DNA of 64,000 nt, taken from positions 1 through 64,000 of the forward strand of contig JADGPD010000003.1 in NCBI GenBank assembly GCA_017882615.1, given 5' to 3'. The notes beneath the pieces are model-generated. The model worked only from the letters and a program-made list of their open reading frames with translations, had not been told where the DNA came from and did not search any database. This document shows, piece by piece, positions 2,769-11,878 of the stretch. Made by a program: the position numbers and the translations under genes. The stretch comes from Thermoleophilia bacterium (GTDB lineage: Bacteria; Actinomycetota; Thermoleophilia; Gaiellales; Gaiellaceae). Every line of letters starts with the position of its first letter. Positions within the stretch are counted from its first letter, which is position 1.

Positions 2769-4685
2769 ATGACACCTCCTGACCCACTAATCGGCGCCCT
2801 CTTCGACGGGCGCTACAAGATCCTCAAGAAGCTCGGTTCGGGAGGGATGGCGACCGTCTATCTCGCCGAAGACCAGGAGCTCGGCCGGCGTATCGCGATC
2901 AAGATCCTGAACGCCAAGCACGCCTCCGACAAGCAGTTCGTCGAGCGCTTCCGGCGCGAAGCCTCCAGCGCCGCCAGCCTCTCGCATCCCAACATCGTGC
3001 AGATCTACGACCGCGGCAACGCCGAAGGCACGTACTACATCGCCATGGAGGTAATCGAGGGTCGCACGCTCAAGGAGCTGGTGATCGAGCGCGGCCCCTC
3101 GCCGATCCTCGTCGCCGTCAACTACGGCCGCCAGATTCTGGCAGCGCTTCGCTTCGCGCACCGAAACGGCCTCGTGCATCGCGACATCAAGCCGCACAAC
3201 GTGCTCGTGGACGACGAGGGTCGGGTGAAGGTCACCGACTTCGGGATCGCGCGAGCGGGCGCCAGCGAGATGACCGAGGTCGGCTCGATCATCGGCACCG
3301 CCCAGTACCTGTCGCCCGAGCAGGCCCGCGGCGCACCGGTCGACGACCGCTCCGACCTCTACTCGGTCGGAGTTCTCCTCTACGAGCTGCTCACCGGCGA
3401 GGCGCCCTTCAACGGCGACACCCCGGTCGAGATCGCCATGAAGCACCTTTCGGCCGTGCCCGAGCCGCCGTCGGCGAAGCGGCCCGAGATCTCGCCCGAG
3501 CTCGACGCGGTCGTCCTGCGCGCTCTGGCCAAGAACCCCGACGATCGCTACCAGAGCGCCGCGGAGATGGACGCCGACCTGAGCGCAATCTCGAAGGGCC
3601 TGGAGATCAGCGATGTTACGACCGACGCCGCCACGACCGTGCTGGCGGGGGCCGGCCTCTCGGCGCCGACGATGATCACCAAGGCGCCTACGCGAGTGAC
3701 GCCGCCGATCCGATCGGGCGCGCCCGCTCCACCCCCGGCGCCGCCCGGCTACTACGACCTCCAAGACGCCACCGTGCGGCGCCCGGTCTGGCCTTGGCTG
3801 CTCGCGCTGGCCCTGGCGATCGCCGTGGGCGTCGCCTTCTGGATCGTCTACCGGCAACTCTCCGAGAGCTCTCCCGTGCCGGTCCCCTCCGTGACCGGAT
3901 TGACCAAGGAGGCTGCGAAGGCGAAAATCTCCCGCGCCGGCCTCGTCTCGAGGGTGATCTACAAGACATCCACCAAATACAAGTCGGGCGATGTATCCCA
4001 GCAAGACCCGACCGGGGGCGAGCGCCTCGCCCCGAACAGCACGGTTCGCATCTGGGTCTCCACCGGAACCGGCAATATTCGCGTCATATCGGTCATCAGC
4101 ATGGATCAGTACAAGGCAATCGCCGCGTTGAGCAAGAGCGGCTTCCAAGTCGCTCCGAAACCCGCGTACAGCGATACGGCGCCGATTGGGACGGTCTTCA
4201 ACCAAGATCCGCTCGGAAGTGTCAAGGCGAAAGCGGGCTCGACCGTGACAATCTGGGTCTCGAAAGGGCCGGCTCCGATCCCCGTCCCCAACGTTGTCGG
4301 TTCGCTCTACAACACCGTCTATCACCCGCTGATAGACGCGGGGTTCAAGATTAATAAGCAGGAAGTGGCGTCCGACCAGCCCAAGGGCACGATTCTCGTC
4401 CAGGATCCCACCTCTGCGGCGCCCAAACAACCGCCCGGCACTACGATCACGCTCCAGGTCTCCCAGGGGCCGCAGCTTGTTTCCGTTCCTTCGGTCGTCA
4501 ACTCCGACGCCGCGACCGCCGAGGCGACTCTCACAGCGGCGGGATTCAGTTACGACCCGGTACCGCAAGACACTCCGAATGCCAGCGAAAACGGGATCGT
4601 CCTAAAACAGACTCCGGAGGGGAACAAGCAGGCCGCTCCGGGCTCGACCGTAACGATCTACGTCGGCAACTTCGTCGCGCCGTGA
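2769..4685 (+). CDS. pknB: PknB-type Ser/Thr protein kinase with PASTA repeats
   Basis: Membrane receptor kinase that senses muropeptides or lipid II through extracellular PASTA domains and phosphorylates division and wall-synthesis proteins. The cytoplasmic kinase domain (about 12-275) has the glycine loop GSGGMATVY, catalytic K45, HRD at 137-139 and DFG starting at D157. A Pro-rich juxtamembrane stretch leads to a single membrane segment at about 340-361. Four PASTA-type repeats fill residues about 368-638, each with the typical 'VPxVxG...A...L...G' pattern and a final 'G..V.I.VS.G'. It overlaps ddl by 4 nt (GTGA). Confidence 0.96.
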   Translation: MTPPDPLIGALFDGRYKILKKLGSGGMATVYLAEDQELGRRIAIKILNAKHASDKQFVERFRREASSAASLSHPNIVQIYDRGNAEGTYYIAMEVIEGRTLKELVIERGPSPILVAVNYGRQILAALRFAHRNGLVHRDIKPHNVLVDDEGRVKVTDFGIARAGASEMTEVGSIIGTAQYLSPEQARGAPVDDRSDLYSVGVLLYELLTGEAPFNGDTPVEIAMKHLSAVPEPPSAKRPEISPELDAVVLRALAKNPDDRYQSAAEMDADLSAISKGLEISDVTTDAATTVLAGAGLSAPTMITKAPTRVTPPIRSGAPAPPPAPPGYYDLQDATVRRPVWPWLLALALAIAVGVAFWIVYRQLSESSPVPVPSVTGLTKEAAKAKISRAGLVSRVIYKTSTKYKSGDVSQQDPTGGERLAPNSTVRIWVSTGTGNIRVISVISMDQYKAIAALSKSGFQVAPKPAYSDTAPIGTVFNQDPLGSVKAKAGSTVTIWVSKGPAPIPVPNVVGSLYNTVYHPLIDAGFKINKQEVASDQPKGTILVQDPTSAAPKQPPGTTITLQVSQGPQLVSVPSVVNSDAATAEATLTAAGFSYDPVPQDTPNASENGIVLKQTPEGNKQAAPGSTVTIYVGNFVAP

Positions 4686-8483: not shown

Positions 8484-9371
8484 ATGATCCTCGTTACCGG
8501 TGCCACCGGCTTCATCGGGCGCCACCTCGTCGCCGGCCTTCGCTCGCTCGAGCAGCCTGTTCGGTGCCTCGTCCGCTCGAGCTCGCGCGGGCGCAAGCTC
8601 GAGGCTCAAGGCTGCGTACTCGCGCTCGGGGATATGACCGATCCGGACAGCCTGCGCGCGGCTTGTGACGGTGTTGACGCGGTGATTCACCTGGTTGCCG
8701 TCATCCGCGGCCGGCCGGTCGATTTCCAGCAGACGATGGCGGCGGGGACGCGAACGCTCGTCGAGGCCGCGCGTGCTGCTCAGGTACGCCGCTTCATCCT
8801 TGTCAGCGCTCTTGGCCTTGCAGAGGAAACCTCCGAGCTGACGCCCTATTACCGAGCAAAGTGGGACGAGGAGCGGACGCTCAAGGCCTCAGGCCTGGAG
8901 CACGTGATCTTTCGTCCGAGCTTCGTTTTTGGGCGTAGCGGCGGCATTCTTCCCACCTTCATACGCCTCGTTCGTTACTCGCCTCTCACACCCGTGCTCG
9001 GGCCCGGGACGCAACGCATTCAGCCGGTCGCCGTCGAGGATGTCGCGTCCCACTTGATCAAAGCGGTCGAGCTCGAAGAAGCCCGCGACAGGACCTTCGA
9101 CCTCGTGGGGCCCGACCAGGTGAGCTGGGACGAGCTCTACGGCCTGATTGCGAGCGTGATCGGCAAACGCCGCCGGCGCGTTCACATTCCGTTTGCACTC
9201 GCTCGAGCTGAGGCCACGCTCTTCGAGCGCCTGCCCGGATTCCCGTTCACTCGCGATCAGCTGAAGATGCTTGCCGCCGGCGACAACGTCGGTGATATCG
9301 ATGCCACGGAGCAGGTTTTTGGGCTTCCGCTGCAATCGCTGGAAGAGCAAATCCGGCGCGCGACGGCCTGA
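8484..9371 (+). CDS. NAD(P)-binding atypical SDR (complex I NDUFA9-like / epimerase family)
   Basis: Rossmann-fold nucleotide-binding protein of 295 aa. The GATGFIGRHL dinucleotide-binding motif starts at about residue 5. A YYRAK stretch at about 121-125 occupies the catalytic Tyr-x-x-x-Lys site of the extended/atypical SDR class. The rest resembles NDUFA9-like or sugar-epimerase-related proteins ('VIFRPSFVFGRSGG', 'IQPVAVEDVA'). The substrate cannot be deduced. Bacterial members have been linked to quinone or lipid metabolism, but that is only family knowledge. It is isolated, facing into the repeat-rich intergenic stretch downstream. Confidence 0.85.
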   Translation: MILVTGATGFIGRHLVAGLRSLEQPVRCLVRSSSRGRKLEAQGCVLALGDMTDPDSLRAACDGVDAVIHLVAVIRGRPVDFQQTMAAGTRTLVEAARAAQVRRFILVSALGLAEETSELTPYYRAKWDEERTLKASGLEHVIFRPSFVFGRSGGILPTFIRLVRYSPLTPVLGPGTQRIQPVAVEDVASHLIKAVELEEARDRTFDLVGPDQVSWDELYGLIASVIGKRRRRVHIPFALARAEATLFERLPGFPFTRDQLKMLAAGDNVGDIDATEQVFGLPLQSLEEQIRRATA

Positions 9372-9408: not shown

Positions 9409-9549
9409 AATGAAGACCCGTCGATTGGGTGCGATCGGTGGATGCGAGACTAGGACGCAGTGTCGCGTTCGTAGCCGGAGGCTACGGATGCGACCGAGGA
9501 CAACGTCCTCGCGCCGCCGAGCGCGGCCAGGCGGCGGAGTGCTTCGTTT
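9409..9549 (+). repeat. Structured dispersed repeat, family A, copy 1
   Basis: About 140 bp clearly related to 43507-43645. It begins around a conserved block (GATCGGTGGATGCGA, ..TAGGACGCAG), then a perfect 15-bp stem at 9462-9494 (GTCGCGTTCGTAGCC, loop GGA, GGCTACGGATGCGAC, counting G-T pairs). Next comes CGAGGAC-AAC-GTCCTCG, a GC-rich arm pair, and it ends at GGAGTGCTTCGTTT. Stem bases differ from copy 2 but pairing is kept. No convincing protein-coding frame. Confidence 0.75.
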
Positions 9550-9562
9550 CGAAAGGAGTTCG

Positions 9563-9594
9563 AAAAAGAAGGAGGGCCGCCGAGACGGCCCTCC
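9563..9594 (-). terminator. Rho-independent terminator (minus strand) of the small 9.7-kb transcript
   Basis: Hairpin GGAGGGCCG / CGGCCCTCC at 9571-9594 with a 6-nt loop. On the minus strand it is followed by TTCTTTTTC. It closes a minus-strand transcript arriving from about 9770. Confidence 0.7.
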
Positions 9595-9689
9595 AATCCG
9601 GTCACCAGCGTTGGATTTGGTAGAGGCGCTTCCAACGACCTAGGTCGCGGCGCGATTAGCGAGCCCCCTACGCTGGCTAGGCGATTCCC

Positions 9690-9769
9690 GGTGGTCCCGG
9701 GGACACGCCCCTACCCGCTGGTACCTCCGCTGCCAGTACTGGAATCTCTCACTGGACCACCTCCTTTCC
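9690..9769 (-). promoter_or_regulatory. Extended Shine-Dalgarno with a downstream anti-Shine-Dalgarno
   Basis: On the minus strand 9769-9754 read GGAAAGGAGGTGGTCC, almost a full complement of the 16S rRNA 3' end, 7 nt from a GTG at 9752. Its GGTGGTCC (9761-9754) is exactly complementary to GGACCACC at 9697-9690 on the same strand. The RNA could therefore fold with the ribosome binding site hidden and the 13-codon frame in the loop. This looks like translational control or a structured small RNA; the trigger is unknown. Confidence 0.55.
9711..9752 (-). CDS. Putative 13-residue leader peptide / micro-ORF
   Basis: GTG start followed by codons for MRDSSTGSGGTSG and a TAG stop. It is chosen because an unusually strong extended Shine-Dalgarno ends 7 nt upstream, far better than at most genes in the window, and a terminator follows at 9594-9571. 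Gly/Ser/Thr composition suggests no folded domain. The short transcript lies about 250 nt downstream of sufU on the same strand but does not obviously lead into another gene, since the next gene is convergent. It could be a leader peptide, a dual-function RNA, or a decoy that binds ribosomes. Function unknown. Confidence 0.4.
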   Translation of the reverse strand: MRDSSTGSGGTSG

Positions 9770-9838
9770 GCGATACCAACATGATAGGCATTACGTCAAG
9801 ACGTGGGCCAAGTTGCGAGCCGCCACGACTTCGTCGCG

Positions 9839-10005: not shown

Positions 10006-10455
10006 CTACTCGAACTCAACTTCGTCGATGCCCGTCCACTCCTCGGGGAGCGGGGTGCCGGCGGACTTGTGCAGGGCGACCTTGATTACACCCAGGCCGA
10101 GCAGGGCGCATTTGAGCCGGATTGGCGTCAGCGGAGTACCGCTCTCAATCATCATCGCCACCAGCGGCGTATCGTCCTTGTCGATCGCAGCCACTTCGGC
10201 GGCCTTGCGACCGACGACCTCCTCGCTCAGCATCGAGGCGGCGGCCTGGCTGATCGCGCAGCCGTGACCCTCGAAGGCGATCTCCTCGATCGTCTCGCCG
10301 TCGGCGCCGAAGCGCAGCGTGACCAGCAGCTCATCGCCGCAAAGCGGATTCTGTCCCTCGGCTTCCGCGTCGGCGGGATCGAGCCGGCCGTGGTGACGCG
10401 GGCTCTTGTAGTGATCGAGGATCAGCTCGCGGTAGAGATTGTCGATGCTGCTCAT
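10006..10455 (-). CDS. sufU: Fe-S cluster assembly scaffold SufU
   Basis: Zinc-binding IscU-like protein of Gram-positive SUF systems; it accepts persulfide sulfur from SufS. Zinc/cluster ligands are visible: C39 (with D41) in NPLCGDE, C66 in GHGCAIS and C116 in RLKCALLG, counted from the ATG at 10455. That start is preferred to an upstream TTG at 10482 because a GGGCGGAG ribosome site precedes it and family members begin similarly. The C-terminus has the extra stretch typical of SufU rather than IscU. sufS lies upstream on the same strand with a 178-nt gap that holds a palindrome. Confidence 0.93.
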   Translation of the reverse strand: MSSIDNLYRELILDHYKSPRHHGRLDPADAEAEGQNPLCGDELLVTLRFGADGETIEEIAFEGHGCAISQAAASMLSEEVVGRKAAEVAAIDKDDTPLVAMMIESGTPLTPIRLKCALLGLGVIKVALHKSAGTPLPEEWTGIDEVEFE

Positions 10456-10524
10456 CGGTGCTCCGCCCGGTAACGCTTGCAAGATTCGGGGTCGCTGGCA
10501 CCAAGCGATGCCAGGACGCAGAAA

Positions 10525-10633: not shown

Positions 10634-11878
10634 CTATGCGAAGACCTTCTGCGCCCGCTCGAGGCCGACGACGAGACGATCGACCTCCTCGGGCAGCGAA
10701 TAGAGGTAGAAGCTGGCGCGGCTGGTCGCCGCGACGCCGAGCTTGTGCATCAGCGGCTGGTTGCAGTGATGGCCCGCACGCACGCAAACGCCTTCGGCGT
10801 CGAGGATCTGGGCGACGTCATGCGGATGGATCCCCTCCAGGTTGAAGGAGACGATTCCGGCCCTGCGCTCGAGCGGCGGCCCGTAAAGAGTCAAGCCGGG
10901 CAACTCGCCCAGCCGCTCCAGCGCGTAGGCCGCGAGCTCGTGCTCGTGCGCAGCGATTGCCTCCAGGCCGATGCCTTCCAGGTAGTCGATCGCCGCACCG
11001 AGCGCCACCGCCTCGGCGACCGGAGGCGTCCCGGCCTCGAACTTGTGCGGCAGCTCGGCCCAGGTCGTCTTCTCGACCGAGACGCGCCGGATCATGCCTC
11101 CGCCGGTCAAGAACGGACTCATCTTCTGCAGCAGCTCGGCGCGCCCGAAGAGCACGCCAACACCGCTCGGGCCGCACATCTTGTGGCCCGAGAAAGCGAG
11201 GAAGTCGCAGTCCAGCGCCTGCACGTCGACCCTGCGATGGGGTGCCGCCTGCGCCGCGTCGATAACGGCGATAGCGCCTCGCTCGTGAGCGAAGGCAATC
11301 AACCTCTCGACCGGAACGATCGTCCCGAGCGAGTTCGAGACGGCGGTGATGGCAATGATCTTCAGTCGGCCACCTCCGGCCAGCCGCTCCAGTTCGTCCA
11401 GCTCCAGCTCGCCCTCGCCGGTAACCGGAATGACCCTGAATTCGGCGCCGGTTCGCCTGGCCACTTCCTGCCAGGGCACGAAATTGGAGTGGTGCTCGAG
11501 CTCACTCGCCAGCACGATGTCGCCCGGGCCGAGGTTGTCCAGGCCCCAGGCGTAAGCGACGAGGTTGAGGCCCTCGGTCGTGTTGCGCGTAAAGACGACT
11601 TCGCGCGGCGAGCTGGCGTTGATGAACTCGCGCGCCTTCTCGCGCGCCTGCTCGTAGGCCGCATTGGCGCGTTCGGCCAGTGCGTATACGCCGCGGCCGA
11701 CGTTGCCGTAGGAGTTCTCGTAAAAGTCTTTCAGCGCAGCGATTACCTGCCGCGGCTTGTGCGCGCTCACAGCCGAGTCGAGGAAGGCGAGCGGCTTTCC
11801 CTCCTCCAGTTGCTCGAAGATCGGGAAGTCGGCGCGGATACGCCGCGCGTCCAGCTTGACGTTTTGCTTCACGGCCAC
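10634..11878 (-). CDS. sufS: Cysteine desulfurase SufS
   Basis: PLP enzyme that takes sulfur from cysteine and passes it to SufU for Fe-S cluster assembly. It is 414 aa, group II type. The PLP lysine is K233 in the SGHKMCGPSG motif, and the persulfide-forming cysteine is C372 in RAGHHCNQP. Substrate-side residues 'SNSLGT' and 'DAAQ' are conserved. It is the upstream gene of a sufS-sufU pair; sufBCD are not in this window. Confidence 0.95.
   Translation of the reverse strand: MAVKQNVKLDARRIRADFPIFEQLEEGKPLAFLDSAVSAHKPRQVIAALKDFYENSYGNVGRGVYALAERANAAYEQAREKAREFINASSPREVVFTRNTTEGLNLVAYAWGLDNLGPGDIVLASELEHHSNFVPWQEVARRTGAEFRVIPVTGEGELELDELERLAGGGRLKIIAITAVSNSLGTIVPVERLIAFAHERGAIAVIDAAQAAPHRRVDVQALDCDFLAFSGHKMCGPSGVGVLFGRAELLQKMSPFLTGGGMIRRVSVEKTTWAELPHKFEAGTPPVAEAVALGAAIDYLEGIGLEAIAAHEHELAAYALERLGELPGLTLYGPPLERRAGIVSFNLEGIHPHDVAQILDAEGVCVRAGHHCNQPLMHKLGVAATSRASFYLYSLPEEVDRLVVGLERAQKVFA

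Follow-up and report, generated by a model that had tools for sequence, protein, structure and literature searches.

Two families of small RNA provide the closest described parallels to the element analyzed here. Ms_IGR-5 (Rfam RF02471), a small RNA of Actinobacteria, is a stand-alone, confirmed transcript in S. avermitilis (PMC8780764), and its homologue is a confirmed transcript in S. lividans; in M. smegmatis, IGR-5 overlaps ncMSMEG15794c. Homologues in M. abscessus and M. smegmatis carry ribosome reads, as do tRNAs and other ncRNAs according to the authors of the same study (PMC4974804). CC2171 (RF01867) is a Caulobacter small RNA whose family gains one covarying pair in the Rfam 15 paper. 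A literature search returned no function for Ms_IGR-5 or CC2171, and nothing on the Shine-Dalgarno (SD) sequence, on CC2171 in Caulobacter, or on dual-function or anti-SD themes.

The element lies on the minus strand of a 64,000-nucleotide stretch of Thermoleophilia DNA (the window). Sequence comparison marks it as a stand-alone small RNA that is distantly related to Ms_IGR-5 and shares its plan with CC2171. A DNA search over 101 relatives detected it in 76, distributed over the family and the order and as a rule present in a single copy. Sixty loci of relatives were taken for comparison: frames were counted on 58, promoters and the proposed lock on 57, and covariation of the long-range helix on 35; the relatives share ancestry and all these counts overstate independence. 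The original prediction, in which a micro-ORF with an extreme ribosome site sits on a self-contained RNA, is thus borne out by a conserved, single-copy intergenic RNA. Its view that the RNA is of an unrecognized type did not survive, given the distant kinship with Ms_IGR-5 and the plan common with CC2171.

The predicted limits of the RNA are set by a promoter element and a terminator. The -10 element TATCAT (9781-9786) matches TAnnnT, a hexamer that precedes the SD block by 16-19 nt in 56 of 57 relatives (by 17 nt in 43) and also stands there in many distant loci; no -35 of good quality was seen. A TTGACG stands at 9794-9799, just 7 nt upstream of the -10 and too close for an ordinary -35; TTGAC is kept at this position within the genus. 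An intrinsic terminator (9562-9594; stem 9594-9571 and T-rich tail) closes the unit, and terminators occur 150-230 nt after the start in nearly all relatives. The conserved -10 position and the near-universal terminators suggest a free-standing transcription unit, with a predicted transcript of ~212 nt in the window (9563-9774) starting near the A at 9774. On the minus strand, the predicted fold of the region is 2.6 sd more stable than those of shuffles. Rfam gave no match at the element, and the only ARAGORN hit in the window is a tRNA-Ile, far away.

The gene context of the element differs among clades. In the window, a SufU-like (NifU_N) protein (10009-10482) and a class-V aminotransferase (SufS-like, 10637-11878) are encoded upstream, both on the minus strand. 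No gene follows the element on that strand, as had been predicted; the next gene (8484-9371) is convergent. In 13 distant loci the upstream neighbor is divergent and encodes a protein that, judged by eye, resembles YgfZ. A 22-nt stretch (9540-9561) immediately beyond the terminator has an exact second copy elsewhere in the same genome (G000:C22:19678-19699) and recurs in G001, resembling a small dispersed repeat.

The 5' part of the RNA is dominated by the full-length SD GGAAAGGAGGTGGTCC (9769-9754), which is nearly invariant in relatives. The 16-mer is complementary to the whole single-stranded 3' tail of 16S rRNA, GGAUCACCUCCUUUCU, with two G-U pairs; this tail was taken from the relatives L257 and L258, the genome's own 16S 3' end not having been found in the assembly. 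The near-perfect ribosome site of the original prediction is real. The stated spacing of 7 nt to the GTG holds for the GGAGG core but not for the full 16-nt block, which ends 1 nt before the start codon. Of the 397 genomes in a sample of the phylum, 91 contain exactly one copy of the SD 15-mer GAAAGGAGGTGGTCC, and a reversed control gave only a handful of matches across the whole table. A candidate hairpin at the 5' end (ACCGC/GUGGU), around the SD, is 97.7% paired in relatives, without covariation.

The SD is followed by a micro-ORF (9711-9752) that begins with GTG at 9752, encodes the 13-residue peptide VRDSSTGSGGTSG and ends in TAG at 9711, just as predicted. The frame was sought in related genomes, as had been proposed, and it is open in 58/58 loci, from a start codon, usually near-cognate, 2-6 nt after GGTGGTC through to the stop, while the other two frames are interrupted by stops in 42/58 and 25/58. 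Start codons in these loci are GTG (25), TTG (20), CTG (9), ATG (2), ATT (1) and ATA (1), so that 56/58 are non-AUG; the stops are TAG (48) and TAA (10). Within the frame lies a second, internal SD, GGAGGT (9723-9728), identical in close relatives and 9 nt before the stop codon. This spacing is exact in 57 loci of the order; L040, the sole locus from another family among the 58, has GGTGGC instead. The internal SD did not figure in the original prediction.

The same layout extends beyond the order. Among 70 distant loci identified solely through the SD 15-mer, 67 show the geometry of start, open frame, GAGGT and stop, compared with 0.4% of shuffled sequences; GAGGT lies 9-12 nt before the stop (10 nt in 58/67). 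The three exceptions are L105, which looks like a chance match, and L125 and L126, which differ only in the internal SD. Starts in the distant loci include ATT, ATC, ATA and CTG, and TGA stops occur. The last observation disposes of the idea, suggested by the lack of TGA in close relatives, that the stop is restricted to RF1 codons: TGA is used in 11/67 distant loci.

The peptides behave quite differently. They are wholly different between clades (SGGTSG, SGGGSS, EVAGR, EVMRR), and GGAGGU is read in differing codon registers, with the distance from SD to stop staying at 9-10 nt. Between the f2 and f1 groups one base was lost and one gained such that the ACGGGC nucleotides and the frame were kept but not the residues, which argues against the peptide as the conserved entity. 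Since the peptides diverge and the geometry persists, it is probably the act of translation that is conserved. Part of the ORF conservation is at the nucleotide level and could have a structural origin. Nor does the element resemble a type I toxin mRNA, which would encode a hydrophobic membrane peptide; the 13 residues of VRDSSTGSGGTSG are hydrophilic.

The end of the ORF is also one strand of a long-range helix, P1. Its 5' strand (9705-9722, 18 nt) comprises the last three codons, the TAG and the next 6 nt. Its 3' strand (9604-9629), just before the terminator, consists of GCGCCTCTACC, the bulge AAATCCAA and CGCTGGT. In 35 aligned relatives, 98.2% of the cells are paired versus 91.8 +/- 0.5 in shuffles, none of 500 of which reach this value; 37 cells are changed on both sides versus 8.8 expected, and 9 of the 18 pairs show both-side changes. 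Sliding the partner along reduces pairing to 31-40%, and the pairing energy in relatives is -27.2 kcal/mol with the own partner versus -21.5 with swapped partners. By inspection, an ACC at 9600-9602 can pair with the GGU of the internal SD, so that the P1 region can cover this as well; distant loci have CACC in the equivalent position.

The helix can be followed into the distant loci, where the AAUCC(C)A-like bulge recurs. Pairing between the ORF end and the strand after this motif gave -12.6 for own and -10.1 for swapped partners, the best of 5000 permutations reaching -11.2; the test was anchored on the motif, and some of the assignments are probably wrong. An unanchored search for the partners failed to find them in these loci because the region is GC-rich. 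RNAalifold misses P1 on a mixed alignment, owing to a misplacement of the f3 group's 3' strand by MAFFT. A second candidate helix in the distant loci, P2, between GGACC of the ORF and a later GGUCC, is weak (27/5000 permutations were equally good). Taken together, the covariation and the energies identify P1 as a conserved lock whose closure would exclude translation of the ORF end.

A different lock had been proposed originally, in which the SD octamer GGUGGUCC is sequestered by a complementary GGACCACC. Such paired 8-mers occur in only 10 of 57 relatives and are not a family trait. The conservation called for in both arms was found in one: the SD arm is nearly invariant, whereas the other is not conserved. 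In the window, GGACCACC (9697-9690) lies mostly within a local hairpin, CCCGG-GACCA-CCGGG (9687-9701), and part of it forms an arm of the stem, which is kept in relatives as CCCCG/CGGGG or CCCTG/CAGGG. The more general claim, that translation and folding are mutually exclusive, fared better; a fold that excludes translation is supported, but it operates through P1 and not through GGUGGUCC/GGACCACC. Next to this hairpin lies a conserved junction, AATCGCCTAGCCAGCGTAGGGG (9665-9686), near-invariant in A1 and A3. The palindrome noted originally, CGACCTAGGTCG (9636-9647), is present, as is the terminator noted with it; it belongs to a lineage-variable hairpin in a region of variable length, or absent, in relatives.

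The kinship with Ms_IGR-5 is best traced through intermediate loci. The Rfam model matches many distant loci at the same place, with up to 97.9 bits, and also a Streptomyces griseoruber locus. The window, in contrast, falls short of even a weak score, far from the threshold of 45 bits: the model has no match in the window or at the element in its own genome, nor any up to E 5 in 12 order-level loci tried. A model of the close relatives with the SD left out (R1) finds as its best matches in 163 kb the f5 loci, another family of the same class (E 0.013-0.032), and these loci in turn match RF02471 (L122, 2.4e-4; L124, 1.4e-3; L123, 0.009; L107, 0.19). Homology between the window element and Ms_IGR-5 is thus transitive, on E-values that are rough. 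In L107, L122, L123 and L124, the Ms_IGR-5 match is followed on the same strand by a tRNA gene that starts ~20-60 nt beyond its end.

Both RNAs are single intergenic copies carrying the 5' GGAAGGAGGUGGUCC block (9769-9754 in the window, compared with the Rfam consensus) and a micro-ORF with a stop-proximal GAGGU. The Ms_IGR-5 consensus differs in pairing GUCC of the SD with a GGAC of the ORF, which is lacking in the window ORF, and it assigns no pairs to the strand making up outer P1. The RF02471 consensus letters GGUGgCugC and GcAGuCACC, equivalent to outer P1, are complementary yet not paired together. CC2171 shares the 5' GAAAGGAGGUGAUCC, the GUG start and a later GGAGG, and differs in that the alphaproteobacterial ORFs mostly have 18 codons; the element is the best CC2171 match of its genome (19.9 bits), far below the cut-off of 75. 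Two better known systems are similar in principle. Leader-peptide attenuators, such as the trp leaders, also use the position of a ribosome on a short frame to decide an RNA helix, but the window element has no downstream gene and no run of a sensed amino acid. Another RNA with a short reading frame read by ribosomes is tmRNA; identity with it was rejected, as the element has no tRNA-like domain or RF00023 match and the tmRNA of the genome is elsewhere (G000:C43).

A pattern search with the A-form of the SD extended the comparison beyond the phylum. At least 119 stretches were found, mostly in Alphaproteobacteria but also in Acidimicrobiia, Candidatus Eisenbacteria and Myxococcota; among the 119 matches listed, the frame is missing from two, and a few resemble chance matches. 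The ribosome-rescue gene arfB (PF00472) is next on the same strand in 66 of these 119, all of the alphaproteobacterial type, generally 180-330 nt from the beginning of the SD; a terminator lies between the RNA and arfB in both loci printed as examples. Pairing of the alphaproteobacterial ORF with the 3' region gave -34.7 for own versus -34.5 for swapped partners, with no covariation shown, and these RNAs may be either homologous to or convergent with the window element. By eye, the P1 plan recurs in L176, an Eisenbacteria locus. An FMN riboswitch (3953-4119) is located ~100 nt beyond the RNA in this locus. Whether Ms_IGR-5, CC2171 and the element make up one ancient, multi-phylum class of ribosome-gated RNAs, which would sense translation initiation or termination as well as rescue capacity and control rescue factors such as ArfB in some lineages, is a tentative proposal that we consider rather doubtful.

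The reading we favor, with a probability of roughly two in three, treats the element as a ribosome-gated switch in the form of a free-standing small RNA that is translated. The parts of this model drawn from comparison are the RNA unit with its -10 and terminator, the SD, the frame of 10-19 codons, the spacing of the internal SD, and P1. In the model, the 30S subunit would bind the SD avidly, but initiation on the weak start codon would be slow. Translation would then proceed to the stop codon. Here the P-site codon is about as far from the internal SD as in initiation, and the internal SD may hold the ribosome, whose presence would keep P1 from forming. Without an arriving ribosome, P1 would close over the stop codon and conceal some of the internal SD as well. 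The open and closed states would presumably differ in the fate of the RNA, with stability, target pairing, protein binding and ribosome trapping as candidate outputs. The RNA would in this way report ribosome loading or clearance rather than make a useful peptide.

The switch has two main rivals, ribosome trapping and arfB attenuation in Rhodobacterales. A decoy or storage RNA, in which the SD, the weak start and the stop-proximal SD hold 30S or 70S particles and trapping is itself the function, would account for the nearly invariant complementarity to the whole 16S tail, the mostly non-AUG starts and the ribosome reads on MS_IGR-5. It leaves the covariation of P1 unexplained, and we regard it as unlikely. 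Slightly less likely again is a transcription-attenuation leader, where the position of the ribosome controls read-through of the terminator. The downstream arfB in 66 of the 119 A-form matches listed, and the terminators preceding it in the two examples, fit such a leader, but the window has only the convergent gene beyond the element, the context varies among relatives, and no conserved antiterminator pairing was noticed.

Two further explanations are less probable still. If the element were a classic base-pairing sRNA with an incidental frame, its conserved junction and hairpin loop could be the seeds; the in-frame geometry from start to stop in 58/58 and 67/70 loci, at 0.4% in shuffles, makes this very improbable. 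Least credible, and scarcely to be entertained, is a gene for a functional micropeptide. The conserved frame and the similarity of the N-terminal residues within clades would agree with it, but the peptide ends are unrelated between clades, the frame change between f2 and f1 spares nucleotides and not residues, and the 3' half is conserved as RNA structure.

The arfB neighborhood suggests a link to ribosome rescue. Two catalogued sRNA families without a known function appear to share one plan, consisting of a perfect ribosome site, a weak start, a stop-proximal SD and a helix over the stop, which the Rfam model of Ms_IGR-5 does not show. This plan gives a testable hypothesis, that ribosome occupancy sets the fold of these RNAs, in Streptomyces, M. 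smegmatis and Caulobacter.
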